Below are positions 45,290-59,074 of a stretch of DNA of 64,000 bases, piece after piece; positions within the stretch are counted from its first letter, which is position 1; every line of letters begins with the position of its first letter. The DNA lies in NCBI RefSeq assembly GCF_013466425.1, contig NZ_CP059165.1, positions 4,340,001 to 4,404,000 of the forward strand, given 5' to 3'. A program made the translations under genes and the position numbers. Under the pieces are notes generated by a model. That model was not told the DNA's origin, did no database searches, and saw nothing but the letters and a program-made list of their open reading frames with translations. This DNA comes from Mycobacterium vicinigordonae. GTDB taxonomy: Bacteria; Actinomycetota; Actinomycetes; Mycobacteriales; Mycobacteriaceae.

Positions 45290-46432
45290 ATGGATCACGA
45301 CCAGCTCATCGATTTGACTCGTCGCGCACTAAAACTCGCGCGCGACAAGACAACCGACCTCACACCACAGACTCACCAGGTCCACGCGGCGGCCTACACC
45401 TCACCCGAGCGGCACCGGCGCGACCGGACTATGGTGCTGGCCAGCCCGCAGCTGGTCGGATACGTTTCCGAACTACCCCGGCCGGGGTCCTACTGCACCA
45501 AGACGGTGATGGGCAGGTCCATCCTGTTGACCCGCACCGCCGACGGCTCGGTCAAGGCCTTCGACAACGTCTGCCTGCACCGGCAGTCGCGCGTCGCGTC
45601 GGGATGTGGAGTGGCCAAACGATTTACCTGCCCCTACCACGCCTGGACGTATGGCAACGATGGCCGGCTGGTGGCGGTCCCGGGCCGGGAGGGTTTCCCG
45701 GACACCACACCGCGATCCGACGGGTTAACCGAGCTGCCCGCGGCCGAGTTCGCCGGGTTCCTTTGGGTGGCGATGCAACCTGTAAAGAGCGGCGGAACAC
45801 TGGATGTAGCGGCCCACTTGGGGCCGCTGGGCGCAGAACTGGACTCTTGGGGCATCGGTCGCTGGGCCCCGCTGGGTGAGAAGGTGCTCGACTCGCCCAT
45901 CAACTGGAAGCTGGCGGTGGACACGTTCGCCGAAAACTACCATTTCGCCACCGTTCACGAGAACACATTCGCGACCATTGCGCGCAGCAATTGCACGGTT
46001 TTCGATGCATTCGGACCGCACCATCGGCTGATCTTCCCGCTCAACACAATCCTGGATTTGGAGAACATTCCCGAGGACCAGTGGGTGCCGCTGAACAACC
46101 TAGTCGTTATCTACGCCCTGTTCCCCAACATCGTCATTTCGGTGACGATCGCCAATGGCGAACTGTTTCGTGTCTATCCGGGGGACCGGCCCGGGCAGTC
46201 AATCACCGTGCACCAGAACTCGACTCCGCTGGACATGTCCGACGAGTCGGTGGCCGCCGGCGCGCAAGCAGTCTTCGAGTACGCGCACGCCACGGTCCGC
46301 GACGAGGACTACCGGCTGGTCCAGGACTTGCAAGCGAACCTGGAATCCGGTGCGCGCGAGAAGCTTCTGTTCGGCCGCAATGAGCCAGGCCTGCAGCACC
46401 GCCACGTCATGTGGGAGCGCGCGTTAACCTGA
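45290..46432 (+). CDS. Rieske non-haem iron oxygenase, alpha subunit
   Basis: This is a 380-residue ring-hydroxylating-type oxygenase. The [2Fe-2S] site is Cys95-x-His97 and Cys114-x2-His117. The mononuclear iron ligands His218 and His223 lie in AENYHFATVH. It has no beta subunit or reductase beside it. ATG 45290 was chosen because upstream reading enters the divergent DUF1906 gene. It is the first gene of the catabolic cluster; its stop overlaps the convergent lipocalin-like gene by 9 bp. The substrate is unknown. Confidence 0.9.
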   Translation: MDHDQLIDLTRRALKLARDKTTDLTPQTHQVHAAAYTSPERHRRDRTMVLASPQLVGYVSELPRPGSYCTKTVMGRSILLTRTADGSVKAFDNVCLHRQSRVASGCGVAKRFTCPYHAWTYGNDGRLVAVPGREGFPDTTPRSDGLTELPAAEFAGFLWVAMQPVKSGGTLDVAAHLGPLGAELDSWGIGRWAPLGEKVLDSPINWKLAVDTFAENYHFATVHENTFATIARSNCTVFDAFGPHHRLIFPLNTILDLENIPEDQWVPLNNLVVIYALFPNIVISVTIANGELFRVYPGDRPGQSITVHQNSTPLDMSDESVAAGAQAVFEYAHATVRDEDYRLVQDLQANLESGAREKLLFGRNEPGLQHRHVMWERALT

Positions 46433-47752
46433 CAGCGCGGTGATCAGATCGTCGAAAATTGTTGCCAATGGCTCTGTTTGGCCGATCCGCAATTTCGAGG
46501 CCAACTCCAGCGCCGCCACTCGCTCTCCGTCGTGCACCAGTTTCGAAAGCTGATCCACTGCGGCCTTCACCTCCGCGCCGGGGACGTCGGCGAGAGTGGC
46601 GGACAACACCTGAACCAACTCCCAGTCCCGGTACAGCGCCAGCGATCGCTCATTGAACGCGAATGCGGTGACAGGTTGGCCGCCCAGCGTTCCGCGATAG
46701 CGATACGGGCCCTCCATATACTCGATCGGCAGGCCATGGGCGGGCGCGGGCACCAGCGGCTCACCGACGATGTCCAATTGCAGCGCGGCGCTGGTGATCC
46801 GATGACGATCGGGCATGTAGCGGGCCTTCGTGGGCGGACGGATCAGCGTTCGGATGGATTCGGGCCACCGGACATAGCTGCTGATGGTGACTTCAAAGTC
46901 TTCCACGCACTCCGGCGCCCTACCGTCGGAGTAGCTGACGGTGATGCCCGTAAACGGTTGCAGCGCATTGCCTTCGGTGCGCAGAAACTGCCGCCAGATG
47001 CTCATGTCGACGCCGTTGCAGAAGTTGACGGTGCGCCACTCGTGGGACCTGGTTCGAGGAGGTTCCCCGGTGCCGCCGCCCGCGTACTTCGGGAACCACT
47101 GCCGGTCGATATGCCCGCTGCTACCCCTGACCTGCTCGGCCAGCTCACCCCAGCGCAGCGTGCCGGTCATGACCAGTCCGGTCTGGAAGTAGGAATACGT
47201 GTCATCCTGACCGAAGCAGGCGATCTTGCCGTTGTACGCCAAGGCGCCCAACGCAGTCGGCGCACGAGTCGGTGTGACGGCAAGCTCCAAACGCATGGTC
47301 CGGCCGTGCTGGTCGGTACCCACCAGGTCGACGTCGTAGGTGTAAGGCACCAAATTGCCGTCGTCGTCGGTCCGGGCGGTCCAGCGCGCCGTGCCGTCGC
47401 GGGTGTCGTACCCGAGGTCCAGTGATCCGACCGCGCTAGACAATCGGGGGGTGGCACCCGGCTCCATACTGGCCGGCGGCATGTCATAGTCGGTGTAGGT
47501 ACCGTAATCGCCGGTGTCCAGGTCAAACAACGCCATGGTGTAGAAGTCGGCGACGATTGATCCGCCCGGTCGATTCCGGTTGAAGATGGTCAGGAATGCG
47601 AACGACCGGCGGGAATCCGGTGCTTCGAGTTCGCCGGCGATGAACCAGGTATCGGACTCCTGGTCGGCGTGCTGACCTTCGGCAGCGGGAAAGTCCAATT
47701 GACCGTCACCGGGTACCAACTTGAATGGGTAACTGCGCCAATCGTTCGTCAC
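46424..47752 (-). CDS. CrtC/AttH-like (lipocalin-type) protein
   Basis: This is a 442-residue protein resembling the hydroxyneurosporene synthase/AttH family of double lipocalin-like barrels. The motifs GSSGHIDRQWFPKY and SHEWRTVNFCNGVDMS correspond to the family's conserved SGxAWxDRxW region and following strands. Relatives include carotenoid 1,2-hydratase and proteins of terpenoid or quorum-signal breakdown. It has no signal peptide. It is divergent from the aldehyde dehydrogenase across a shared operator. A hydratase or isomerase role on an isoprenoid substrate is an inference. Confidence 0.7.
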   Translation of the reverse strand: MTNDWRSYPFKLVPGDGQLDFPAAEGQHADQESDTWFIAGELEAPDSRRSFAFLTIFNRNRPGGSIVADFYTMALFDLDTGDYGTYTDYDMPPASMEPGATPRLSSAVGSLDLGYDTRDGTARWTARTDDDGNLVPYTYDVDLVGTDQHGRTMRLELAVTPTRAPTALGALAYNGKIACFGQDDTYSYFQTGLVMTGTLRWGELAEQVRGSSGHIDRQWFPKYAGGGTGEPPRTRSHEWRTVNFCNGVDMSIWRQFLRTEGNALQPFTGITVSYSDGRAPECVEDFEVTISSYVRWPESIRTLIRPPTKARYMPDRHRITSAALQLDIVGEPLVPAPAHGLPIEYMEGPYRYRGTLGGQPVTAFAFNERSLALYRDWELVQVLSATLADVPGAEVKAAVDQLSKLVHDGERVAALELASKLRIGQTEPLATIFDDLITALSG

Positions 47753-47780
47753 GCGCCGCCTCGCACTAAGAGAATTTTTG

Positions 47781-47798
47781 CTATGTTAGCATCAATAG
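47781..47798. promoter_or_regulatory. cluster regulatory element, copy 1 (CrtC-like / ALDH promoter)
   Basis: CTATGTTAGCATCAATAG lies in the 82-bp divergent gap between the CrtC-like gene and the aldehyde dehydrogenase. It has CTA...TAG ends 18 bp apart and includes the palindrome TGCTATGTTAGCA (47779-47791). TATGTTAG recurs exactly at 59060-59067 in another promoter of the cluster. Confidence 0.55.
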
Positions 47799-47834
47799 CG
47801 AAATTACCGTCGCCTGCCCTGAGGTGGTGCCCCG

Positions 47835-49328
47835 ATGACGGCAACCCGTTCGTACGACCGGCTTTTCGTCGGCGGACAATGGCGCGACCCGGCCACGTCG
47901 CAGCGTCTCACCGTAATCTCCCCGCACACCGAGGAGCCCATCGCCGAGGTACCCGCAGCCGATCAGCGCGACCTCGATGCCGCAGTGGCGGCCGCTCGGC
48001 GCGCCTTCGACCACGGTCCGTGGCCGCGCCTCTCCCCGGCCGAGCGGATGCGCAAGGTCTCCGATCTGGCCGACCAGTACGGGCGCCATATCGACGAAAT
48101 GGCCGACCTGATCACCGCCCAGATGGGCTCCCCACGCAGCTTCAGCCGACTCGGCCAAGCTGCCGGGGCCGCCTCGATGATCCATCTGACGCTGGCCGCC
48201 GCCCGCGAGTTCCCCTGGTCGGAACGCCGCCAGGGCGTGCTGGGGGAGGCGCACCTGAACCGGGCACCGGTGGGTGTAGTCGGGGCCATCGTGCCGTGGA
48301 ACGTGCCGCAATGCCTGATCATGCCCAAGCTGATTCCCGCTCTGATCGCCGGCTGCACCGTGATCATCAAGCCGGCTCCCGAAACCCCTTTGGACGCTTT
48401 GTGGTTGGCCGAGATGATCGAGCAACTCGAGCTGCCGGACGGTGTGGTGTCGGTGCTCCCCGCCGGACCGCAGCTCGGTGAGGCGCTGGTGCGGCACCCC
48501 GGCGTGGACAAGATCGCCTTCACCGGGTCCAGCGCCACCGGCCGCCGCATCGCTGCGCTCTGTGGAGAACAACTCAAACGGGTGAGTCTAGAACTCGGCG
48601 GCAAGTCGGCGGCGATCGTGCTCGACGACGCCGACGTCGCCAAGACGGTCGCGGGATTGAAGTCGGCGAGTCTGATGAACAACGGTCAGGCCTGCGTCGC
48701 GCAGACCCGCATCCTGGTCAGCCGCCGCCGGCACGACGAACTCGTCGACGCGCTCGCCGACATGATGTCGGGCCTTACCGTGGGCGACCCCACCGACGAG
48801 AAGACCGACATCGGACCCCTTGTCGCGCAACGGCAACAGGCTCGGGTCCAAGACCTCATCCGGTCCGGACAGCAGCAGGGAGCCCGGCTGGTGCTCGGTG
48901 GCGCCGACAGCCCGCAACCGCGTGGCTGGTACGTGCGACCCACCCTGTTCACCGACGCCACCAACGACATGCGCGTCGCCCGTGAGGAGATCTTCGGCCC
49001 GGTGCTGACCGTGCTGCGCTATGACAACGAAGACGACGCCGTCCGAATCGCGAACGACAGCGACTACGGCCTGGCCGGCTCCGTGTGGACCACCGACGTC
49101 GCGCACGGTCTCGACATCGCCGGGCGGGTGCGCACCGGCACCTATGGCATCAACATGTACATGCTCGACATCAGCACCCCGTTCGGCGGCTTCAAGCATT
49201 CGGGCATCGGACGTGAGTTCGGACCCGAGGGCCTGCACGAGTACGTCGAGCTACAGTCAGTGGCCTGCAAAGGAAAGCTGCCGCCGCTCAACGACTCTCG
49301 GGGTACGGCGGGGGAAGTTGCAGGGTGA
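47835..49328 (+). CDS. aldehyde dehydrogenase (NAD+-type)
   Basis: This is a 497-residue ALDH superfamily enzyme oxidising an aldehyde to a carboxylate. NAD motifs PWNVPQ and FTGSSATGR are present, as are catalytic Glu in LELGGKSA, nucleophilic Cys in NNGQACVAQTR and the EIFGPV motif. It would supply an acid for the CoA-activating enzymes of the same cluster. Its 3' end overlaps the convergent MaoC gene by 41 bp. Confidence 0.93.
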   Translation: MTATRSYDRLFVGGQWRDPATSQRLTVISPHTEEPIAEVPAADQRDLDAAVAAARRAFDHGPWPRLSPAERMRKVSDLADQYGRHIDEMADLITAQMGSPRSFSRLGQAAGAASMIHLTLAAAREFPWSERRQGVLGEAHLNRAPVGVVGAIVPWNVPQCLIMPKLIPALIAGCTVIIKPAPETPLDALWLAEMIEQLELPDGVVSVLPAGPQLGEALVRHPGVDKIAFTGSSATGRRIAALCGEQLKRVSLELGGKSAAIVLDDADVAKTVAGLKSASLMNNGQACVAQTRILVSRRRHDELVDALADMMSGLTVGDPTDEKTDIGPLVAQRQQARVQDLIRSGQQQGARLVLGGADSPQPRGWYVRPTLFTDATNDMRVAREEIFGPVLTVLRYDNEDDAVRIANDSDYGLAGSVWTTDVAHGLDIAGRVRTGTYGINMYMLDISTPFGGFKHSGIGREFGPEGLHEYVELQSVACKGKLPPLNDSRGTAGEVAG

Positions 49329-49740
49329 TCTGCACCGGACAACATAGCGCGCCGTGCTGGTTGAGCACGTCGATCTGTAAGTCCGCCAGATAACGCGGCG
49401 GGTCGACGCTGGTGTCGCATCGTTTATCCGTCACGCGGCCGCGCCCAACCATGGTGTCACCGGCGTAGATCGAACCGATCAGCCGCATCGAGCGGCGCAC
49501 CACGCGGCTGCGTGGCCCGGCCCACTCGGTTGCGACCCGGTCGGCGAAACCCGCCAGGTGCATGGTGTTGACGAAAATTGTTGGATTGCCCTGGCTTTGG
49601 GCGTAGGTGGGGTCGAAATGGCCGGGAAAGTAATCCCAGGTGGCGCCGGCGTTCTCGATGACCCGCTGGTAGGTGATCTCGTCGACGACCTCGGGCAGCT
49701 CCGCCGAGACGCTGATCGAATCCCAATCCAGATCGGTCAC
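49288..49740 (-). CDS. MaoC-like hydratase, small subunit
   Basis: This is a 150-residue hot-dog protein with the hydratase-like segment PGHFDPTYAQSQG near residue 45-57 and a central TMHLAGF helix. GTG 49740 overlaps the stop of the preceding FAS1-like gene (GTGA). Pairs of short hot-dog proteins form heteromeric enoyl-CoA hydratases in mycobacterial steroid side-chain degradation (ChsH1/ChsH2 type), and this pair looks alike. The longer open frame to 50094 overlies the upstream gene. Confidence 0.82.
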   Translation of the reverse strand: MTDLDWDSISVSAELPEVVDEITYQRVIENAGATWDYFPGHFDPTYAQSQGNPTIFVNTMHLAGFADRVATEWAGPRSRVVRRSMRLIGSIYAGDTMVGRGRVTDKRCDTSVDPPRYLADLQIDVLNQHGALCCPVQITLQLPPPYPESR

Positions 49741-50291
49741 GACACCTGCCCGGAAGTGAACCGGAACAACGTATTGCGGGATCTGGCGACGACGGCACCA
49801 TCCTGGCGGCGGTAGGTCTCCAGCGTTTCGACGAAATGCCCTACGCCCAGCCGAGTTTGCTTTTCCGGCGACACCGACACCAGCTCCTCGACTGCGGTGA
49901 GCAGATCGCCTTCCACGATGGGTTCCAGGAATTCGACATCGTTGGAAGCATTGATGAACGTGTTGCCCGGCAACGGGACTCGCAGCGCAAGAGATGCGGC
50001 TGGTCGGGCCGCGCCGACCGCCTGGTCGGGCAGCCACGGGGCCGGTATCAGCCACCCCATCAACAACGCGGGTGGCGCCAGCAGGCCGCCCCACTGTCGG
50101 CCGGCGAACTCGGCATCCCAGTACGAGGGGTTCGCGTCGCGAAGCATGGCGGCAAACAGCTGGATGCGCGCGCCGCTGACCCGATGGGCCGCGATGCGGG
50201 GTTCGGTCGCGCTACCCACCATCTGCAGGGCGTCCTGGTAAGTGCCGAAGGCCATTTGGTAACTCAGTTGGCCGGAGGGATGCTGGTCCAC
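49737..50291 (-). CDS. FAS1-like dehydratase / MaoC N-terminal hot-dog subunit
   Basis: This is a 184-residue hot-dog protein with LRDANPSYWDAEFAGRQWGG followed by a proline-rich PPALLMGW, the FAS1-like dehydratase pattern. It is probably the partner of the 150-residue MaoC protein with which it is translationally coupled. GTG 50291 lies 4 nt before the stop of the SnoaL-like gene end at 50296, giving a tight operon. Confidence 0.82.
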   Translation of the reverse strand: MDQHPSGQLSYQMAFGTYQDALQMVGSATEPRIAAHRVSGARIQLFAAMLRDANPSYWDAEFAGRQWGGLLAPPALLMGWLIPAPWLPDQAVGAARPAASLALRVPLPGNTFINASNDVEFLEPIVEGDLLTAVEELVSVSPEKQTRLGVGHFVETLETYRRQDGAVVARSRNTLFRFTSGQVS

Positions 50292-50295
50292 GGGA

Positions 50296-50718
50296 TCACA
50301 TGACAAGCTGGCGGCTCGGCACTGCATCCCATTTGAGCTCGCGCGAGGTGAAGTACCATCCGCCGCGCTCGTAGACGAGTTGGTCCCGGTAGGTCCCGGT
50401 GGCCCGCAGCGTGGTGGTGCCATGCACCGTGGCGAACAGGATTGCGACACAATGCTGCGTCGCGTTGACCCCGTCGACACAAATATCGTGGTCGACGGTC
50501 ACCAGTCGCTGTCCGTCGCCGCCGTCGAAGGCCGCACGCAGGTCGCTGAACAACTCACCATCGCGGAGATAGGTCGCACCCGAATGACGGAACGTCGCGA
50601 TCCACGCGTCGCGGTTACCGGCGGAGTAGGCCCGGTTGTGTCTGGCGGTCAGATCCTGGATCGCTCCGCGGGCGGTGGCCCCTTGCAGCAGCTGCTGTTC
50701 CTGGTACGTCAGTGGCAT
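50296..50718 (-). CDS. SnoaL-like / NTF2-fold protein
   Basis: This is a 140-residue protein of the NTF2-like superfamily (SnoaL_4 type). It contains DLTARHNRAYSAGNRDAWIATF, the first helix and start of the cone, then GDGQRLVTVDHDICVDG and a GGWYFTSREL strand. Such proteins act as small ring isomerases, hydroxylase-like partners or dehydratases. ATG 50718 has GGAAG 4 nt upstream. It is between the acyl-CoA synthetase and the MaoC pair in the same direction. Confidence 0.8.
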   Translation of the reverse strand: MPLTYQEQQLLQGATARGAIQDLTARHNRAYSAGNRDAWIATFRHSGATYLRDGELFSDLRAAFDGGDGQRLVTVDHDICVDGVNATQHCVAILFATVHGTTTLRATGTYRDQLVYERGGWYFTSRELKWDAVPSRQLVM

Positions 50719-50740
50719 TTCTCTTCCTTCGCTCTCCCAT

Positions 50741-52332
50741 TCACCGGCTAACGGTGTATCCGTGGCTTTCACGGTCCCACGTGCCAGCGGACAAACCGCG
50801 GGCGCGGAGTAAGTCTTTGCGTACCCGTCCGATCACGTTCTTGGGCAGTTCATCGAGCGTCTCGATGTAGCGCGGCACGCAGAAGTAGGGCATCCGCACG
50901 GCGCAGAAGTCCAGCAGCTCGGCGTAATCGATTGCCGTTGCGGGCCGTAACACCACCGCCAGCAGGATGTCATCCTCACCCAGGTCGCTGGGCACCGCGA
51001 CGGCGGCGGCTTCGGCGATCGCCGGGTGGCGCAGCACCACGGCCTCCACCTCCACCGATGAGACATTCTCGCCGCGCCGGCGCAGCGAATCCTTGGCGCG
51101 GTCAACGTAGATCAGGTTGCGGTCCTCGTCGAACTTGCCCAAGTCGCCGGTGCGAAACCAGTCCGGGTGCGGCCGTACCCACGCTTGCTGATCTGCCGCT
51201 TCGGTGACGTACCCCTGGCTCATCACGTGCGGGAACCTGGGGCGACAGACGATCTCGCCCACTCCCCCGGCGGACAGCTCGTTGCCCTCGGCGTCGACGA
51301 CACGCACGTCGAGTTTGGGTTCGGTTGACCCGAGGTACCCGGAACTCCCTCGTCGGCAACGCTCTTCAGCGCAAGTGGAAACGCTTCGGTCAGGCCGTAC
51401 ATGGTAACGACGCGACAGCGGTAGCGCTGCTCAATCGCCCGGTAGGAGCCGGCGTCGATCGGCGCCGCCGAGATGAACCGCAACGGCAGCTGCGCATCCC
51501 CCGGATCGGTCGGCAGATTGGCCAGCATGGACACCATCGCTCCGGCGCCCACGAAGCCGACAGCTGCATGCGCACGCACCTCGTCCCATACCTTACCGGG
51601 ATGGAAGGCGCCTGCCAGCACGGTTTTACCGCCGACCAACAACGGTGCCAGCACACTGGGCGCGGCGCTCAGGTGGAACAGCGGCATCGCCGTCCACAGC
51701 GTCTCCCCCGCGCTGAACTGCCACGCCCCGGCGGTAGTGGCGGCCACCGTGAACAGGTATTGCCAGGACGCGGCAACAGCTTTCGAACGCCCGGTAGTGC
51801 CGGAGGTGAAGAAGAGCGCCCCGGTCTCGCCGTGGTCGGCCGGGCTGTCGGTTACGGTGCCACCCTCGTTGAGCGTCTGGGTCAGCAAATCACCTCGCAC
51901 CACAACGTTGGTCAGCGAATCACACCGATCAGCCAGGTCCTCGACGCGGGTGTGCCGCTCGATGTCGGTAAAGACCACCTTGGCCCGCGACAACGTGAGG
52001 TTGTGCAATAGGAAGTCGCCCTTGTTGGCGGCGTTCACTGCGGCGCTGATTGCGCCGATGCGTGCCGCGCCTAACCAGAAGTAGATCCACTCCGGGCAGG
52101 TTGAGCTGAACAACGCTACGCAATCACCCGGTCCGACACCGAAATCCGCCAACAGCCGGGCCGCTGCATGAGACCGCTGCCGCAGCTGCTCGAAGGTGAT
52201 GTCCACTCCGGCGACGGACAGCATCACCCGGTCGGGAAACTGCTCGGCACGCTGGTCCAGCACTGCCGGCACGGTGAACCGGTCGACGCCGAAATCGGCG
52301 GGCCCCGGCGGCCCGGTCGGCTCAACGCGCAT
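50741..52332 (-). pseudogene. acyl-CoA synthetase with a single-base frameshift
   Basis: The first reading frame (52332 to about 51318) encodes an ANL-family ligase start MRVEPTGPPGPADF, the P-loop FFTSGTTGRSKAV and TMYGLTEAF. The C-terminal part, with DWFRTGDLGKFDEDRNL, RRRGENVSSVEVE and PKNVIGRVRKDLL, continues only in another frame down to 50741. The junction is at the TTTGGG run at 51314-51319. The whole span is 1592 nt, one base short of 531 codons. This is either a true inactivating deletion or a sequence error. It would have activated a carboxylic acid with CoA. Confidence 0.85.
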
Positions 52333-52349
52333 CAGACTAGGGGTGCGGA

Positions 52350-53471
52350 TCAGGCAGGCGCGGCGGCTGGATCTGGCGACCCGTCGGCGGTGTAGCCGAA
52401 GTCGGTCGGCGACGGTTCGGCCCCCGGGTAGAAGCGGTGCGCCCAGCGACGCAGGGCCGCGTAGTCGCGCGCCTCTTCCGGCGCCAAGTTGGGCTTCTCC
52501 AGGTACTTCATGTTCTCCCAGGTGAAGAAGTCTTGCTTGATGACTTCTTGTTGCAGCGCAAGGAATTTGGCTGCCCTTCCGGTGGGCTTGTCGCCGGTGT
52601 CGCCGGGCTCGCGGATGGAGGCCTGGGTGTAGAAGTAGTCGGTGTAGTCCTCGTCGACCGGAGTCTGCCCGGTCACCTCGATGGTCGCCACCAGTTCGCT
52701 GGGGAAGCGGACGATGCCCAGGCCCAGCGAGTAATTGTCGTAGATGATCTTCGCGTCGACCGGGCCGTCCGGGGTCAGCCACGTGGACCCGCGGCCGCCT
52801 CCGAAGTGGGCGCTGACGGTGGCATGCAGGTGGTACCCCGCGACCTCGAACGACGTGGTGTTGGCCGGGTTAGCCGCCTTATGCACGTATTGCACGTGAT
52901 ACGGGTCGGCCGCGTTCTCGATGATCATCTGGGCGTGCACCTTGACCCGGTTGAGCATGCGACTGTGCGGGTGCAGCGGGTAGTACTCGTTGGTCTCCAG
53001 CTCGGGCAGCACCGGCGGCTGCCAGTACGGTGGCCGGCCGTGCCGCTCGTGCCAGACCAGGATGAACCCGTACCACTCGGTTGCCGGGTAGGTGCGGAGG
53101 CGGACGTTGTTCTTGCAGCCGATCTTGCTGTAGGGGATCAGCGCGTTGGTGCCGTCACCGCGCCACTGCCAGCCGTGCCAGGGGCACACGATGTTCTCGC
53201 CCTCCACGGTGCCGCCCACACCCATGTTGGCCCCCAGGTGCTGGCAGTAGGCGTCCAGTACATGCACCTTGCCGGACTTAGTGCGAAAGAGCACCAGTTC
53301 CTCGCCGAAGTAGTGCACCCGCTTGACCTCGCCGGGGGCTAGGTCGGAGGCGAAGCCGACGATGAACCAGCCGGTCGGGAACCGGTAGGTCGACAGCGCG
53401 ATGCCCGAGGGACCGAACTCCCGTTCCGAGGGATCCGAGTCCGACGCCAGGTCAGTGAAAGTTTCCGTCAC
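52350..53471 (-). CDS. Rieske oxygenase, KshA-like
   Basis: This is a 373-residue Rieske monooxygenase resembling KshA, the 3-ketosteroid 9-alpha-hydroxylase oxygenase. The [2Fe-2S] ligands are Cys76, His78, Cys96, His99. The mononuclear iron motif NAADPYHVQYVH has His192 and His197 (with Asn186 and Asp189). KshA-type enzymes act on steroid or bile-acid-like rings; the substrate here is unproven and no reductase lies nearby. GTG 53471 is preceded by GGAGAA. The open frame upstream to 53567 contains the promoter element instead. Confidence 0.87.
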   Translation of the reverse strand: MTETFTDLASDSDPSEREFGPSGIALSTYRFPTGWFIVGFASDLAPGEVKRVHYFGEELVLFRTKSGKVHVLDAYCQHLGANMGVGGTVEGENIVCPWHGWQWRGDGTNALIPYSKIGCKNNVRLRTYPATEWYGFILVWHERHGRPPYWQPPVLPELETNEYYPLHPHSRMLNRVKVHAQMIIENAADPYHVQYVHKAANPANTTSFEVAGYHLHATVSAHFGGGRGSTWLTPDGPVDAKIIYDNYSLGLGIVRFPSELVATIEVTGQTPVDEDYTDYFYTQASIREPGDTGDKPTGRAAKFLALQQEVIKQDFFTWENMKYLEKPNLAPEEARDYAALRRWAHRFYPGAEPSPTDFGYTADGSPDPAAAPA

Positions 53472-53545
53472 GAGTTCTCCGTTTCCCACGCGGGCTGCGC
53501 GGCAATGGGGGCCGCCCACGCTGCACCGCGATTCGACGACTACGT

Positions 53546-53564
53546 CTATTTTTACTATTTTAAG
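53546..53564. promoter_or_regulatory. cluster regulatory element, copy 2 (KshA-like promoter)
   Basis: CTATTTTTACTATTTTAAG lies 75-93 bp upstream of the KshA-like start. It contains TTTACTATTTT (53551-53561), identical to 59046-59056, and its first 15 bases match 13 of 15 with the element at 59050-59064. The core CTATTTT occurs twice, 9 bp apart. Confidence 0.55.
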
Positions 53565-53758
53565 CATTGAACGTCAACGAGCAGGCGTTTGCATGCTCGT
53601 CTTGCTGCTGCGAATTCGGGTTGCCGCCACAGCAGAACTTCGGCTTTCCCACGCGCAGCGCAACTTTGGCCGACAGGCTCGAACGTCTTTCACGGACTTC
53701 GGCGGGCAGCAGAGGGTTTCGTGTATTTGCGCGGCTTCGGGCGGTGCGCAGCGTGACG

Positions 53759-53833
53759 CGCAGGGTTAGACCAATGTGACGTTCGCAGGGTTAGACCAAG
53801 GTGACGTTCGCAGGGTTAGACCAATGTGACGTT
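53759..53833. repeat. three tandem 25-bp repeats
   Basis: Three consecutive 25-bp units (53759-53783, 53784-53808, 53809-53833) contain GGGTTAGACCAATGTGACGT. Units 1 and 3 are identical and unit 2 differs by one base (CCAAGGTG for CCAATGTG). They fill the 391-bp gap between the ferredoxin and the KshA-like gene. The remainder of that gap holds the AT-rich element and no supported gene. Confidence 0.95.
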
Positions 53834-53862
53834 CGGCGGGAGAAAGACCGATCACCGAAAGG

Positions 53863-54054
53863 TCAGTCGATGATTTTCAGCGCGGCACGGGGACACTGAT
53901 CCACCGCGGCACGCACATCGATCTCCCGGTCGGGCGGGATGGGCCCGTCGGCGATCTGCACCACGTCTTCGTCACCCAACTCGAAGATGTCCGCGGCGAT
54001 CGACTCACAGAACCCGTTGGCCTCGCACAAGTCCGGATCCACAGTCACGCGCAT
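53863..54054 (-). CDS. [3Fe-4S]-type ferredoxin
   Basis: This is a 63-residue ferredoxin with cluster ligands Cys10, Cys16 and Cys54 (followed by Pro55). The variable cluster position, residue 13, is Asn (CEANGFC) rather than the usual Cys, Ala or His. Such mycobacterial CxxNxxC...CP ferredoxins serve cytochrome P450s, but no P450 is present in this window, so its partner may lie outside it or be the oxygenase upstream of the repeats. It is located between the CoA-transferase and KshA-like genes on the same strand. Confidence 0.9.
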   Translation of the reverse strand: MRVTVDPDLCEANGFCESIAADIFELGDEDVVQIADGPIPPDREIDVRAAVDQCPRAALKIID

Positions 54055-54127
54055 CAGATGTCCCCTAACTCCTCTGACCGGCAGTGACGAACCGCCACGC
54101 TCGGTTTCACCGCGCCTGCGATCACCA

Positions 54128-56515
54128 CTAGACGCCCACCGGCCGGGTTCCGATCACCTCGGCGGCGGCGAGGTGATCGAATTGCGCTCGGGTGAGTCCG
54201 CACTGATCGCGCAGCACTTCTTCATTGTGCTCGCCCAATGTCGGCGGGGGGCGCAGGAGCCAGCTGTGTTGCCCGGCGAGCAGCGCGAACGGGGGGGTGG
54301 GGTAAAGGCCGGGTCCCGTCCGCGGGTGATCCAGGGACTCGAAGAATCCCCGCTGAAGCAGTTGCGGATTCTGTGTGACCAGCGAGGGAGACACCACCGG
54401 CGCCACCGGAATACCCGCCGCTGCCAGCAGATCGACCGTAGCGTCCCGCGGTTGGCCGGCAAACCAGTCCCGCAGCCGCTCGTCGAGCTCGTCGCACCGC
54501 GCGCGCCGCCCCGCGCCGGTCGCGAGTTCCGCGTCCGCCCACGGCGGCGTGCCCAGCAATTCGACCAGCGCCGCCCACTGCCCGTCGTCACACACGCTCA
54601 GTGCGATCCACTCGTCGTCATCGCCGGAGCAACGGTAGAGGTTCTGGATTGCCCCACCGTGTCCGCGGTTGCCCCGTCTGGCCAGCGTCTTGCCGAACAC
54701 TTCGTGCTCGATTGGTTGAATTGCCGTGGTGTTCAACACCGTTTCGACCATCGGCAGCTCGATCTGTTGACCCGAACCGGTACGTTCGGCGAACTGTAGA
54801 GCCGCCAGTACCGCGAACGCGGCATGTACGCCGGCGAGCGGGTCGCAGGCACCGCGCGGGGTCACTGGCGGCGTTTCCGGCAATCCAGTCACCCACGCCA
54901 ACCCGGCGATCTGCTCCATGGTGGGAGCGAAGCCGACCCGATCGCGCCACGGCCCGTCCAGCCCGAACGCCGGCATCCGCGCGACGACGAGCTGGGGGTT
55001 GATCTGCAGCAGCACGTCGGCGGTGAGCCCGAAGTGGTCCATCACCCGCGGGGAGAAATTCTCGATCACCACGTCGGCTTGGGCGGCCAGCGCCCGGAAC
55101 AACTCCCGTCCCGCATCGGAGCCCAAATCCAGTGTGATGGAACGCTTGTTGGTGTTCATCGCGTGGAAAACCCAGCCGTATTCCCACCAGTCGTCGACGT
55201 CGGTGCGCATGCCGCCCGAATACCGGATGCCGTCGGGACGCTGGATCGACTCCACCTTGACCACGTCGGCGCCGAATGCGGCGAGCAGATGGGTGGCCGC
55301 CGGACCGGCCCAGAAGGCGGTCAGGTCGACGATCCGCACCCCCTGCAGCGGCAACCCGCCGCTCGCCGGCGCGCCATCGTATTTCCTTTCCTGCCAGAAT
55401 GTTTCATCGTGTTGCGCCCCAACCGCGGCGGCTTCGGCCAACATCGCGGGCGCACACCGCGACATCAGCCACGGTGGGCGCGGCTGGTGAAATCCGGCCG
55501 GATTTTGCACGTACACGCCACGCTGGGTCATGTAGTCCATGTCGCGGACAGTGGCGCCGTTGCCCAGTGGGGCGATCGGGAGTCGGAACAGCTGGCCCAG
55601 TTCGACGACCTCGGCAACGGTGCGCTCCGCGAACCATGGACCAATCGAGTCGTAAATGAAGTCGCGGTACTCCCAGCGGCCAATCTGGAAACGCAGTTGC
55701 GGAATCTCTTCGAAATCAGGGCGTTCCACCATCGCCGCGAAATCCAGCCACTGCTGTCCCGTGACCATGGTGATGCCGACATAGCCGTCTTTAGCGGCGA
55801 TGATCGAAGGCACTTCCAGGGTCCGCCGGACCGGGGGTACCTGCAGCAGTTGAGAGTGCAGCCATTCGCTGCTCTGCATGGCGGTGATCGCCTCGAGCAT
55901 GGACAGGTCCAGATGTTCACCGGTGCCGCCGCGCGCCACACGGCGGTGCACGGCGAGCGCAGCGAATGCGGCGTACACCCCACCCATGTATTCCCCGAGG
56001 TCGCCGCCGATCGAGATGGGCGGTCCGGCGGGATCGCCGCGGAACCCAGTGCAACCGGACCAGGCCTGCAGGGTGAATTCGGTGGCCGCCCGGTCGGCGA
56101 ACGGACCGCTGAAGCCGAAGTTGGAGATGGTGACGAGGACGCTCCGCGGGGACTGCTGCAGCAACCGCTGTGGGTCGATCCCCAGCGCGGCGGCCTCAGT
56201 GGGTCCAGCGGTCACGATGACGATGTCGGCGCCGGAGAGTTCGCCGCGGTAGTGATCCGAATCTGGCGACACGCTCACGATGCTCTTGCCAGCGTTGAGG
56301 TAACTGTAGAGCGGTCCCACCGAACCGTCCGGCACCGGTGAGCAGGTGGCGGAATACCTCAGCAGGGGATCTCCTTGCGGCGGTTCAATTTTGCGGACGT
56401 GTGCGCCCACATCCACCAACAGCTTCCCGCAATAGCTGCCGGCCAGGCGGTCACTGATCTCGACGACACGCAGATCGTCCAGCGGCGTCGGCCGGCGACC
56501 GGCCCCGTGACTCAC
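54128..56515 (-). CDS. two-domain family III CoA-transferase (CaiB/BaiF fusion)
   Basis: This is a 795-residue protein consisting of two tandem family III CoA-transferase modules. The first begins PLDDLRVVEISDRLAGSYCG and the second, at about residue 385, begins PLQGVRIVDLTAFWAGPAAT. Each has its own C-terminal lobe. Single enzymes are about 400 residues and act as interlocked dimers, so the fusion would put both chains in one polypeptide. It probably moves CoA between acids of the catabolic route. It is divergent from the GntR regulator gene. Confidence 0.88.
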   Translation of the reverse strand: MSHGAGRRPTPLDDLRVVEISDRLAGSYCGKLLVDVGAHVRKIEPPQGDPLLRYSATCSPVPDGSVGPLYSYLNAGKSIVSVSPDSDHYRGELSGADIVIVTAGPTEAAALGIDPQRLLQQSPRSVLVTISNFGFSGPFADRAATEFTLQAWSGCTGFRGDPAGPPISIGGDLGEYMGGVYAAFAALAVHRRVARGGTGEHLDLSMLEAITAMQSSEWLHSQLLQVPPVRRTLEVPSIIAAKDGYVGITMVTGQQWLDFAAMVERPDFEEIPQLRFQIGRWEYRDFIYDSIGPWFAERTVAEVVELGQLFRLPIAPLGNGATVRDMDYMTQRGVYVQNPAGFHQPRPPWLMSRCAPAMLAEAAAVGAQHDETFWQERKYDGAPASGGLPLQGVRIVDLTAFWAGPAATHLLAAFGADVVKVESIQRPDGIRYSGGMRTDVDDWWEYGWVFHAMNTNKRSITLDLGSDAGRELFRALAAQADVVIENFSPRVMDHFGLTADVLLQINPQLVVARMPAFGLDGPWRDRVGFAPTMEQIAGLAWVTGLPETPPVTPRGACDPLAGVHAAFAVLAALQFAERTGSGQQIELPMVETVLNTTAIQPIEHEVFGKTLARRGNRGHGGAIQNLYRCSGDDDEWIALSVCDDGQWAALVELLGTPPWADAELATGAGRRARCDELDERLRDWFAGQPRDATVDLLAAAGIPVAPVVSPSLVTQNPQLLQRGFFESLDHPRTGPGLYPTPPFALLAGQHSWLLRPPPTLGEHNEEVLRDQCGLTRAQFDHLAAAEVIGTRPVGV

Positions 56516-56528
56516 GCGGCTATTTATA

Positions 56529-56546
56529 CCATTACTGCTAAAATAG
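56529..56546. promoter_or_regulatory. cluster regulatory element, copy 3 (CoA-transferase / GntR promoter)
   Basis: CCATTACTGCTAAAATAG is in the 98-bp divergent gap between the CoA-transferase and GntR genes. It ends in AAAATAG, the complement of CTATTTT of copies 2 and 4, and contains the palindrome GCTAAAATAGC (56537-56547). A wider imperfect dyad GGCTATTT ... AAATAGC surrounds it. The position suggests autoregulation by the GntR protein. Confidence 0.55.
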
Positions 56547-56613
56547 CTAAGCCAGTGGAGTTCGCGGGCCAGCGACCGTGCGCTCTTTCCTGCTGCAGGT
56601 TGCGAGGAGTCGC

Positions 56614-57438
56614 ATGACCGCCCCTCTGGGAATTGGACCCGACGCCCGTCGCCGATTGTCGGCGCCGAGGATCGCCGAAATCGTAGCTGACGAGTTGCGC
56701 CGTCAGATCATCGACGGTGAGCTTGCCGACGGCGACCTGCTGCCCCGCCAGGAAGTTCTGGTCGACCAATTCAAGGTCAGCCTGGTCTCGTTACGCGAAG
56801 CCCTGCGGATCCTGGAAACCGAGGGACTCGTCTCGGTACGGCGCGGCAACCGCGGCGGCGCAGTGGTGCACGCTCCGGCCAAGACCAGCGCCGCCTACAT
56901 GCTGGGCCTGTTGCTGCAGAGCGAGTCCGTCGTGGTCAGCGACCTCGGTGCGGCGTTGCAGGAACTCGAGCCCGCTTGCGCGGCGCTGGCTGCCCAACGG
57001 CCCGACCGCGCCGACACCCTGGTGCCCGAACTCAAGCAGGTCAACGAGGCGATGGCCGAAAACCTGGAAGACGGGCGGCAATTCACCGAGATCGGTCGCC
57101 AGTTCCACAATCTCATCGTGCGCGGGTGCGGTAACCACACCATCATCGCGGTCGTCGGGAGCCTGGAAACGCTATGGTCCAGCCACGAACAGCAGTGGGC
57201 GGACGAAAGTTCGGCCAGCGGCACCTACCCTTCGCTGGCCCAACGGCGGGCGGCGCTCAACACTCACATCAAGCTGACCGAGACGATCGCCGAGGGGGAC
57301 GTCGACCGGGCACGCCGGATCGCGGGCCGCCACCTGGCCGACACCCAGACCTACGTGCTGTCCGGCCAGACCGAACAGCGGATCTATGCGTTGTCTCCGC
57401 AGGCGTTGTCACGCCCGCGCGACCTCCGGCGCCCGTAG
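56614..57438 (+). CDS. GntR/FadR-family transcriptional regulator (FCD type)
   Basis: This is a 274-residue regulator. A winged helix domain (about residues 14-80) includes LRRQIIDGELADGDLLP and VSLVSLREALRILETEGLVSV, and an all-helical FCD effector domain (about 100-245) follows. ATG 56614 has GAGGAG 4 nt upstream; GTG 56578 would be a longer alternative. It is divergent from the CoA-transferase and followed after 9 nt by an SDR gene. It is the only regulator in the cluster, and candidate for binding the shared AT-rich elements. Confidence 0.9.
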   Translation: MTAPLGIGPDARRRLSAPRIAEIVADELRRQIIDGELADGDLLPRQEVLVDQFKVSLVSLREALRILETEGLVSVRRGNRGGAVVHAPAKTSAAYMLGLLLQSESVVVSDLGAALQELEPACAALAAQRPDRADTLVPELKQVNEAMAENLEDGRQFTEIGRQFHNLIVRGCGNHTIIAVVGSLETLWSSHEQQWADESSASGTYPSLAQRRAALNTHIKLTETIAEGDVDRARRIAGRHLADTQTYVLSGQTEQRIYALSPQALSRPRDLRRP

Positions 57439-57447
57439 GGGCCGCAG

Positions 57448-58197
57448 TTGATTACTCCCAGAACCGCATTGGTCACCGGCGGTAGCGGTGGCATCGGCAA
57501 GGCGTGCGCGGCCAAGCTGTGCGAACTTGGCTACCACGTGCTGGTGATGGCCCGCCGGGAAGGACCGCTGCGGGCGGTGGCCGAGCAGATCGGCGCACAT
57601 GCCGTTGTCGCAGACGCGTCCGATCCCGACGAGTTCTCCGCTGCGATAAGCCCTTTCGAGTACATCGATCTCGTGGTCCATGCCTCGGGTGCGCTCGGCG
57701 GAACCTACGCGCGCAAGCAGACTTTCGAACAGTGGCGCACCATCATCTCGGCCAACCTGGACTCCTGCTTCGTAGTTACCTCGGCGGTGCTGCCTCGAAT
57801 GCGACCGGGTTCGCGGCTGATCTTCATTTCGTCGTCGGCCTCGCACGAGCCGATGATGGCGCGCACCGCGTACTCGGCTTCCAAGGCCGGCATGAACGCG
57901 TTCGCCCGGGCGCTGGCCATGGAGGTCGACCGCGACGGCATCGCCGTGCATCTGGTGACCCCTGGCCCGGTGGAAACCGAGATGCTGCAGGATGTTCCGT
58001 TCGAGATGTACGCGATCCAGGTTTCCGATATCGCCAACGCGGTCGCTTGGCTAGATACCGTCGAGCCGTCCGTCGACCTGCCGGAGATCAGGCTCAGTGC
58101 GGTGCAGCGCGGACCATTCTCCCGCCCGCCGGTGGTACCCACCGAAGCGCGACGGCGCGCAACGGCGCTCAAGCAGCAGAGCGCGGGAAGTTCTTGA
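57448..58197 (+). CDS. short-chain dehydrogenase/reductase
   Basis: This is a 249-residue SDR with cofactor motif TGGSGGIG, catalytic Ser in ISSSA and Tyr-x3-Lys in YSASKAG. It starts at TTG 57448, 9 nt after the GntR stop, the only start near the conserved N-terminus. It probably oxidises a hydroxy intermediate (hydroxyacyl-CoA or ring alcohol) in this pathway. Its last 29 bp overlap the convergent LLM gene. Confidence 0.87.
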   Translation: MITPRTALVTGGSGGIGKACAAKLCELGYHVLVMARREGPLRAVAEQIGAHAVVADASDPDEFSAAISPFEYIDLVVHASGALGGTYARKQTFEQWRTIISANLDSCFVVTSAVLPRMRPGSRLIFISSSASHEPMMARTAYSASKAGMNAFARALAMEVDRDGIAVHLVTPGPVETEMLQDVPFEMYAIQVSDIANAVAWLDTVEPSVDLPEIRLSAVQRGPFSRPPVVPTEARRRATALKQQSAGSS

Positions 58198-59014
58198 TAA
58201 CCGTGTCGCCGAACTCGGCCACCGACTGCGGGGCCGCAAAATCAGCGAACCACACGTAGACACGTTCCACCCGCCGGGCAGCCAGCGCGGTGAAATGCCC
58301 GATCAGTTCGTCGGCGTCGCCGCAGACCAGTCCCGCCCCGAGATGACCGAACCGCCGGGTGCTCACCTCGCGCACCGCGGCGGGTTCGGCGCCGGCCCGC
58401 ACGAACCCCACCATCTGCTGCACCGAGATCCGGGCCGAGCCGGTTGCATCGGCCAGCCGGGGTAACCGCTCGAGGTGGTTGGCCTGCAGATTCCACCAAT
58501 CCGCGTGTTCGGCAACGAGTTCCATCATCCGCCGGCCACTGCCACCCAGAACCAGCGGTATCGGATAAGTAGGCGTGGGCTGCTGCCCGCCGCTCCAGTA
58601 TTGCTTGATCAGCTCGAGGTGGCGGCCGAGTTGCTCGACACGGGCTACTGGATCCTGCTGACCGACATCGAATCTGGTGAACTCCGCGGGCCAGGATCCC
58701 GAACCGAGGCCGAGGTCGAAGCGGCCGTGGCTCGCCTCCGACAAGGTAACGGCCTGCTTGGCGAGCACGGCCGGATGCCGAAACGCGTCGCATAGGACCA
58801 GGTGACCGACACGCAATCGCTGCGTTCGCGCTGCGACCCAGGAGGCGACGCCCATTGCCTCCCAAATGTTTTCGCCGGGTTGGCCCGGCGCCTCGAGGTG
58901 GTCGATGAACGCGATGCCGTCGAATCCACCAGCCTCGGCGTGCTGCGCCCGCTCCACGATGTCGGAAACCGGCAACCGCACCTGCGGTACGAACAGATAC
59001 CACTGCACCGTCAA
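58169..59014 (-). CDS. LLM-class flavin- or F420-dependent oxidoreductase
   Basis: This is a 281-residue luciferase-like monooxygenase-fold protein. It begins VQWYLFVPQV and has the F420/FMN-binding segments FDGIAFIDHL, RVGHLVLCDAFRHP and FDLGLGSGS. Mycobacteria use this fold mostly with F420. It is divergent from the acyl-CoA dehydrogenase operon across an AT-rich operator, so it likely belongs to the same regulon. Its reaction is unknown. Confidence 0.87.
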   Translation of the reverse strand: MTVQWYLFVPQVRLPVSDIVERAQHAEAGGFDGIAFIDHLEAPGQPGENIWEAMGVASWVAARTQRLRVGHLVLCDAFRHPAVLAKQAVTLSEASHGRFDLGLGSGSWPAEFTRFDVGQQDPVARVEQLGRHLELIKQYWSGGQQPTPTYPIPLVLGGSGRRMMELVAEHADWWNLQANHLERLPRLADATGSARISVQQMVGFVRAGAEPAAVREVSTRRFGHLGAGLVCGDADELIGHFTALAARRVERVYVWFADFAAPQSVAEFGDTVIKNFPRSAA

Positions 59015-59049
59015 CCCCTCACTGCGTTTGCACCCGGGCCGCTAGTTTA

Positions 59050-59067
59050 CTATTTTTATTATGTTAG
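59050..59067. promoter_or_regulatory. cluster regulatory element, copy 4 (LLM / acyl-CoA dehydrogenase promoter)
   Basis: CTATTTTTATTATGTTAG is in the 60-bp divergent gap, just upstream of the dehydrogenase start, with CTA...TAG ends 18 bp apart as in copy 1. It shares TATGTTAG with copy 1 and, with its left flank, TTTACTATTTT with copy 2. It would cover the promoter of both genes. Confidence 0.6.
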
Positions 59068-59074
59068 GGGTCTT

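Follow-up and report, generated by a model that had tools for sequence, protein, structure and literature searches.

The locus and its AT-rich elements

We analysed 64 kb of the Mycobacterium vicinigordonae genome (contig NZ_CP059165.1, positions 4,340,001 to 4,404,000), hereafter the window, within a one-contig genome of 6,266,765 bp. A catabolic cluster spans 46.4-63.3 kb of the window and encodes a lipocalin-like protein, an aldehyde dehydrogenase (ALDH), two MaoC/dehydratase-like proteins, a SnoaL-like protein, an AMP-binding ligase, a KshA-like Rieske oxygenase, a ferredoxin, a double coenzyme A (CoA)-transferase III, a GntR/FCD regulator, a short-chain dehydrogenase (SDR), a luciferase-like (LLM) monooxygenase and four acyl-CoA-dehydrogenase-like proteins. 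Four short AT-rich elements, F1 to F4, lie in its promoters. They share a motif that is conserved in orthologous loci, co-occurs with the GntR protein across genomes and recurs at a fifth conserved site (F5) at another catabolic locus, and we interpret them as the probable operators of one regulon. The elements and the genes around them are, in order along the window:

46424..47752, minus strand: lipocalin-like protein (a term of the preliminary description), proposed target of F1; orthologues were identified, and no Pfam or NCBIfam match was found at E ≤ 0.001
47780..47799, plus strand: F1, candidate operator GCTATGTTAGCATCAATAGC, between the lipocalin-like gene (minus) and the ALDH gene (plus)
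47835..49328, plus strand: ALDH, proposed target of F1; PF00171
52350..53471, minus strand: KshA-like Rieske oxygenase, proposed target of F2; PF00355 and PF19298, nearest PDB chains KshA
53545..53577, minus strand: F2, candidate operator and promoter before the Rieske gene, with TTGACG (-35-like), a spacer and boxes CTATTTTTA CTATTTTAA (read on the plus strand)
54128..56515, minus strand: double CoA-transferase III (CaiB-like), proposed target of F3; PF02515 in two stretches
56519..56553, plus strand: F3, candidate operator in the divergent CoA-transferase/gntR gap, with the 18-mer CTATTTTAGCAGTAATGG at 56529-56546 on the minus strand
56614..57438, plus strand: GntR/FCD (FadR-type) regulator, proposed binder; PF00392 and PF07729 above cut-off
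57448..58197, plus strand: SDR following gntR; PF00106
58169..59011, minus strand: LLM monooxygenase, proposed target of F4; PF00296
59042..59067, plus strand: F4, candidate operator CTAGTTTACTATTTTTATTATGTTAG in the divergent LLM/acyl-CoA dehydrogenase gap, ending 7 bp before the dehydrogenase start codon
59075..63325, plus strand: four consecutive acyl-CoA-dehydrogenase-like genes, proposed targets of F4; PF00441 in all four

The Rieske gene is probably the first of a leftward run, a putative operon, that includes the ligase, SnoaL-like and MaoC-like genes, all identified by Pfam.

The elements were initially described as 18-19-bp words at 47781, 53546, 56529 and 59050, and each word is present there and is single in the 64 kb, both strands searched. 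The two words said to be shared exactly, TTTACTATTTT (53551 and 59046) and TATGTTAG (47782 and 59060), have only these two occurrences each within the window, and the GCTA-N3-TAGC palindromes are likewise in place, with GCTATGTTAGC at 47.8 kb and GCTAAAATAGC at 56.5 kb. AT-rich 18-mers, those with at most five G/C, form 20 patches in the window, and right of 46 kb these four sites are the only ones. Three of the four lie in divergent gaps (lipocalin-like/ALDH, CoA-transferase/GntR and LLM/acyl-CoA dehydrogenase), as had been noted; the fourth, F2, is upstream of the Rieske gene only, with no divergent gene in the window.

Form of the shared motif

Written in one orientation, the sites are CTATGTTAGCATCAATAG (F1), CTATTTTTACTATTTTAA (F2), CTATTTTAGCAGTAATGG (F3), CTATTTTTATTATGTTAG (F4) and CTATTTTAGATATTCTAG (F5). 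Their common core is CTA-N3-TAG plus a CTA- or TAG-like triplet displaced by one step of 9 bp. CTA-N3-TAG is exact in F1, F3 and F5, and F2 (CTA-N3-TAA) and F4 (TTA-N3-TAG) are one-base variants; by eye, the extra triplet, CTA or TAG in F1, F2, F4 and F5 and TGG in F3, has its centre 12 nt from that of the core. A diverged clade has CTATTTTTACTATTTTAGGCATTCTAG as the site ahead of the Rieske gene (G011, G077 and G013), which unites the F2 and F5 forms and thereby yields a single dyad, CTA-N6-CTA-N3-TAG-N6-TAG.

The 18-bp element first proposed stands in its register, which holds when the 56.5-kb copy is taken on the minus strand, and the idea that this register was a misreading was dropped because F5 and the diverged-clade sites fit it. 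Its length was revised. The best-shared part is the 9-bp core CTATKTTAG, which occupies the left half of two copies and the right half of the remaining pair, and the conserved footprints are 20-35 bp rather than 18 bp.

The scanned patterns were derived from the sites themselves; independent evidence comes from the leave-one-out ranks, from F5 and from the other genomes. Matrices built with one promoter left out ranked the left-out site first in every case (F1-F5), among about 128,000 window positions for F1-F4 and about 32,000 positions in a 16-kb locus for F5. A 12-bp offset was allowed for the left-out site, and the ranking excluded 30 bp on either side of each training site; for F1 the best offset was 9 bp before the register of the preliminary description. 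Matrices with shuffled columns, which keep the AT content, reached the true margin in 1, 5, 0, 5 and 0 of 300 cases for F1-F5, and the view of the words as mere AT-rich DNA was rejected on this control.

Genome-wide scan and a fifth site

Three patterns were scanned across the 6.27-Mb genome. The 10-mer GCTATNTTAG has three matches, namely F1, F3 and 3200177-3200186, which is F5; RYTATKTTAR has nine, four of them in the window sites; and CTATNTTWRNNNNNNTRR has seven, made up of the four window sites, F5 and two others (1205034 and 2140889) that gained no support. Reversed-pattern controls gave 1, 6 and 6 matches, respectively. In five cluster-bearing relatives (G001, G006, G007, G010 and G017), CTATNTTWRNNNNNNTRR finds the same five sites and 0-2 others. 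Of three further genomes scanned with it, G004 and G009 lack the GntR and have one match and none, respectively; the third, G011, belongs to the diverged clade.

F5, found from the core alone, lies 1.19 Mb from the cluster and upstream of a CoA-transferase III gene (L084:8221-9441). This gene is present in 7 of the 31 genomes searched (E ≤ 1e-120, own genome included), and TAGCTAGAATAYCTAAAATAGCAAG precedes it in 6 of the 7. On the other side of F5 are a mycofactocin-coupled SDR (above cut-off), whose divergent frame starts at least 150 bp away, and two E1-type thiamine pyrophosphate (TPP)-enzyme subunits; further on come an enoyl-CoA hydratase, an AMP-binding ligase, a Rieske ring-hydroxylating alpha subunit and a FAD_binding_2 protein. 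In G102, homologues of the F5-locus SDR and E1 genes are found 24-31 kb away from its GntR copies, with a motif match about 5 kb from them.

The preliminary description had expected matches only upstream of the cluster or of linked genes. The cluster promoters are indeed matched; F5 and the matches at 1205034 and 2140889 lie elsewhere. As F5 is unlinked, the expectation does not hold strictly, yet the genes at F5 are of the same catabolic kind.

The region around F5 (G000:C1:3184000-3208000; L133 and L084) is a second catabolic locus in its own right, with Rieske, flavin adenine dinucleotide (FAD)-dependent, ligase, enoyl-CoA hydratase and P450 genes beside the site.

Conservation in orthologous loci

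Orthologous loci were taken as the best 80 of 104 from a GntR scan of genome contigs; they are from Mycobacterium, one record being labelled Mycolicibacterium, and their GntR proteins are 86-96% identical to that of the window. F1 is kept in all of the 21 loci, of 80, that have an ALDH start in reach (identity to the window: mean 0.93, lowest 0.65). With the respective gene start in reach, F2 is kept in 74 of 74 (mean 0.95, lowest 0.79) and F4 in 79 of 79 (mean 0.96, lowest 0.77). F3 is kept in 79 of 80 at a threshold of at least 55% match over 48 bp, below which L080 falls, and its identity over 35 bp averages 0.97 (lowest 0.60). The immediate flanks have mean identities of 0.61, 0.52, 0.54 and 0.76 for F1-F4 (the F4 flank includes the start codon), and at fourfold-degenerate positions in the neighbouring gntR the mean is 0.55 (80 of 80 loci).

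A matrix trained on sites of the own genome, which are orthologues of those it detects, gave 268 hits scoring at least 17.5 in these loci (1,555,792 bp), where one site may yield two overlapping hits (32 hits for F1). Of these, 265 are on F1-F4, two are on the F1 promoter of L015, a locus that gave no ALDH match, and one is stray. With 267 of 268 hits on these promoters, the objection that the motif occurs at background frequency fails. The motif is also kept in homologous clusters, among them those of the diverged clade, whose GntR proteins are 68-75% identical in the genomes inspected, and the single regulon that had been proposed is supported by both results. A site is found in the regulator's own promoter and before the neighbouring operons, conserved across orthologous loci, as in a local GntR regulon.

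One locus (L019) has a CoA-transferase/gntR gap of 274 bp, and in four related loci (L013, L016, L017 and L018) the CoA-transferase match is about 4 kb from gntR; the gap sizes suggest an insertion or rearrangement between the two genes.

The GntR regulator

The protein at 56614-57438 has a GntR-type winged helix-turn-helix at its N terminus (PF00392, 60.9 bits against a cut-off of 27) and an FCD/FadR C-terminal helical domain (PF07729, 71.3 bits against 24.3). Proteins from strains of M. asiaticum and M. gordonae share 95-96% identity with it, and that of G057, of the same genus, shares 97%. A Pfam search of all 17 protein pieces of the cluster found no other regulator. Among the best 120 homologues listed, of 1094 found, 117 have VSLVSLREA as the recognition helix. 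Seven further GntR matches (E ≤ 0.001) occur in the own genome; the four strong ones read VSRPTLREA or VSRPVLREA at the same place.

A GntR orthologue (E ≤ 1e-80) is present in 45 of 98 genomes of the genus, and all 45 have at least two pattern matches (median 5, control mean 2.0). Among the 53 genomes lacking it, 38 have no match and 5 have at least two (median 0, control mean 1.7); the matches of the 15 that have any were inspected by eye, and in eight of these 15 genomes all 16 matches were off the narrow consensus. For seven of the 13 diverged-clade genomes we tallied distances among the matches listed: 23 of 30 lie no more than 15 kb from gntR, and 25 no more than 25 kb.

Extra GntR copies (in G109 and G102) are accompanied by motif-like, mostly weak sites at most 0.6 kb upstream, and both readable helices are VSLVSLREA. 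The second GntR of G109, 62% identical and with this helix, stands beside a second Rieske gene that has CTATCTTTAGCATTCTAG upstream; for the two copies in G102 the upstream sites, at a distance of about 55-125 bp, are weak. Strong circumstantial evidence, short of proof, supports GntR as the candidate binder, since the motif co-occurs with it, a site lies in its own divergent gap, it is the sole regulator among the 17 cluster protein pieces and its extra copies have sites.

Two side observations concern these regions. In G109 a separate Rieske, SnoaL-like and GntR set (L150, 6459-9490) is an apparent part-duplicate of the cluster with operator-like sites of its own. Past the far end of the lipocalin-like gene, a motif-like AT-rich word occurs in three loci of the diverged clade, at L154:1311 (minus strand, score 21.3), L155:18282 (plus, 19.0) and L151:18822 (minus, 25.0), and this word may mark a further promoter of the regulon; in L127 no AT-rich patch was found there.

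Comparison with known systems

The kind of system is familiar, a GntR regulon, and its operator is unusual for the family in having none of the usual GT/AC boxes. PMC4494728 summarizes operators of the FadR subfamily as AT-rich palindromes with TKGT/ACMA boxes, usually with 3 nt between GT and AC; a further, weaker box often stands 7-12 nt from the centre. The same source names NanR and BioR as exceptions. Like FadR, LldR, PdhR and GlcC, the present regulator combines a GntR winged helix-turn-helix with FCD and has a divergent local regulon that includes its own gene. Its half-sites are 3 bp apart, within the expected 2-3 nt, and extra half-sites accompany the main one, the additional triplet being centred 12 nt away, in keeping with the 7-12 nt range. 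The helix VSLVSLREA sets it apart from the four strong paralogues in its own genome.

NanR of Escherichia coli is the closest solved structure by sequence (6on4, E 7e-10) and the best NCBIfam match, far below cut-off, and it too uses several boxes close together. We know of no flanking boxes at the BioR operator. That operator, TTATMKATAA (PMC4494728), belongs to the same family and is likewise an AT-rich exception to the GT/AC rule, and its sequence is different. NanR binds three GGTATA direct repeats (PMC8012715), unlike the symmetric CTA/TAG boxes with their 9-bp step. A NanR-like repeat was considered and rejected, there being a single GGTATA, in the F3 minus strand, that varies between species. 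The mycobacterial steroid regulons of KstR and KstR2 are also regulated ring-degradation sets with KshA-type enzymes; their regulators, unlike the one here, are of the TetR family with other operators. No paper on this motif or regulon was found among the matches listed in open-access literature, and a search with the literal core words had none on mycobacteria among the matches listed. The reach to a second, distant catabolic locus seems new to us.

Proposed mechanism

We think it very probable that F1 to F4 serve as operators of a single regulon under the FadR-type GntR protein, which would repress by sitting over the -10 regions until a pathway intermediate releases it; here we infer the binder and the sign of regulation from sequence. 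The binding unit for one GntR dimer would be the CTA-N3-TAG pseudo-palindrome; one or two half-sites on its flanks, each offset by 9 bp, would make binding stronger, and the four-triplet dyad of the diverged clade would be the complete operator. The core shares bases with -10-like TANNNT hexamers on either strand, so bound GntR could block RNA polymerase, at F1, F3 and F4 for transcription either way, and from F3 it would also repress gntR itself. The intermediate, a carboxylate or acyl-CoA, would bind the FCD domain and free the DNA, this domain being suggestive of a small inducer of either type.

In the diverged clade, a P450 with CYP125 and CYP268 as its nearest solved relatives shares an F2-type promoter with the Rieske gene, and a second site is near another P450; three genomes of this clade have a P450 gene placed between those for the Rieske oxygenase and the CoA-transferase. 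Given the KshA-like, CYP125-like, CoA-transferase and acyl-CoA-dehydrogenase genes, the inducer may derive from a hydrophobic ring or branched compound, and the KshA-like enzyme and the P450, judged with the ALDH, Rieske, CoA-transferase and P450 relatives, point to a ring or branched hydrophobic substrate.

Several observations weigh against parts of this proposal. The outer box of F3 is TGG instead of TAG, and the half-sites of F1-F5, compared by eye, are CTA/TAG and not the TKGT/ACMA given for the subfamily (PMC4494728). Shuffled matrices that keep AT content still rank the true site first in 12, 37, 22, 41 and 108 of 300 cases (F1-F5), and the genome totals of RYTATKTTAR and CTATNTTWRNNNNNNTRR hardly exceed background, so with 7 matches against 6 in the control the argument for CTATNTTWRNNNNNNTRR rests on location and not on number. 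One of the seven F5 loci (L096) is without the site, and in the diverged clade the equivalent of F3 in the gntR gap is much degraded. Among the 53 genomes lacking GntR, 15 have at least one match, most of which look like background; one of them, G099, has a full core (CTATTTTAGGGATATTGA, core CTATTTTAG, outer box TGA), and G087 has 9 matches against 12 in the control, one of which fits the narrow consensus (CTATGTTAGGGGAATTAG). GntR presence is confounded with cluster presence, and co-occurrence is therefore no proof of the binder. A consensus promoter scan of 46-60 kb found one promoter-like site (F2) against 1.5 expected in shuffles, which makes the -35/-10 reading weak. Repression over activation we infer from one kind of evidence, site position.

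That the elements are promoter parts only, AT-rich pseudo-symmetric -10s of bidirectional promoters with no dedicated regulator, appears highly improbable. The TANNNT hexamers on both strands, the three divergent gaps and F2, which lies over a -10-like hexamer downstream of a conserved -35-like TTGACG (18 bp before AAAAAT), would suit it, and prokaryotic bidirectional promoters are called pseudo-symmetrical and ubiquitous in PMC12825309. Ordinary -10 elements would, however, be everywhere, whereas GCTATNTTAG occurs three times in 6.27 Mb; the conserved footprints run to 20-35 bp, F5 has no close divergent start and F2 no divergent gene, column order counts beyond AT content, and the motif tracks GntR across genomes. 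It is very unlikely, too, that these are real operators read by a regulator encoded outside the cluster, with GntR controlling something else or only itself. The lack of FadR-type GT/AC boxes and the seven further GntR matches in the genome, with presumably many other regulators, leave room for this; against it stand the position of GntR as sole regulator among the 17 cluster protein pieces, the gntR-gap site in nearly all loci, the motif in 45 of 45 GntR-bearing genomes and beside GntR copies elsewhere, and the VSRP(T/V)LREA helices of the four strong paralogues.

GntR might also bind these sites and act as an activator, which we consider unlikely, since the sites lie over -10-like hexamers and F4 ends so close to a start codon, a blocking position. 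Activators usually bind upstream of -35, which counts in the same direction. Some GntR proteins do activate, and one of them, the FadR-type Ms0535 of M. smegmatis, is reported to do so and binds a different, 26-bp palindrome (CCTTGCATGCATTCTTGCATGCAAGG; PMC4609117), a precedent that speaks against repression here.

Beyond repression by GntR at the four elements, a broader reading is possible and is offered tentatively: this GntR clade may have a new class of operator, four CTA/TAG half-sites in one dyad bound by two or three cooperative dimers over divergent promoters, joining two unlinked gene sets in one undescribed mycobacterial steroid- or terpenoid-like pathway.

Other features of the region

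The acyl-CoA ligase gene between the Rieske and SnoaL-like genes (50741-52332, minus strand) is in two frames with a break near 51.3 kb, one piece matching AMP-binding and the other AMP-binding_C; from the sequence it looks frameshifted in this genome, or there is a sequence error near the break. The gap between the Rieske and ferredoxin genes holds a tandem array (53759-53835) of 3.1 copies of a 25-bp unit, and a 22-bp pattern of the unit has three matches genome-wide, all in that array. Beyond the cluster, in L088 (G000:C1:4404001-4414000), are open reading frames that we take to resemble type VII secretion parts.

Significance

A cluster of unknown substrate that is found in many mycobacteria becomes a defined regulon with an exact operator. 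With such an operator, the inducer, and through the inducer the substrate, could be searched for with one reporter. Because the paralogues in the same genome differ in the recognition helix, the regulator also offers a natural test of how specificity changes in FadR-type recognition helices.

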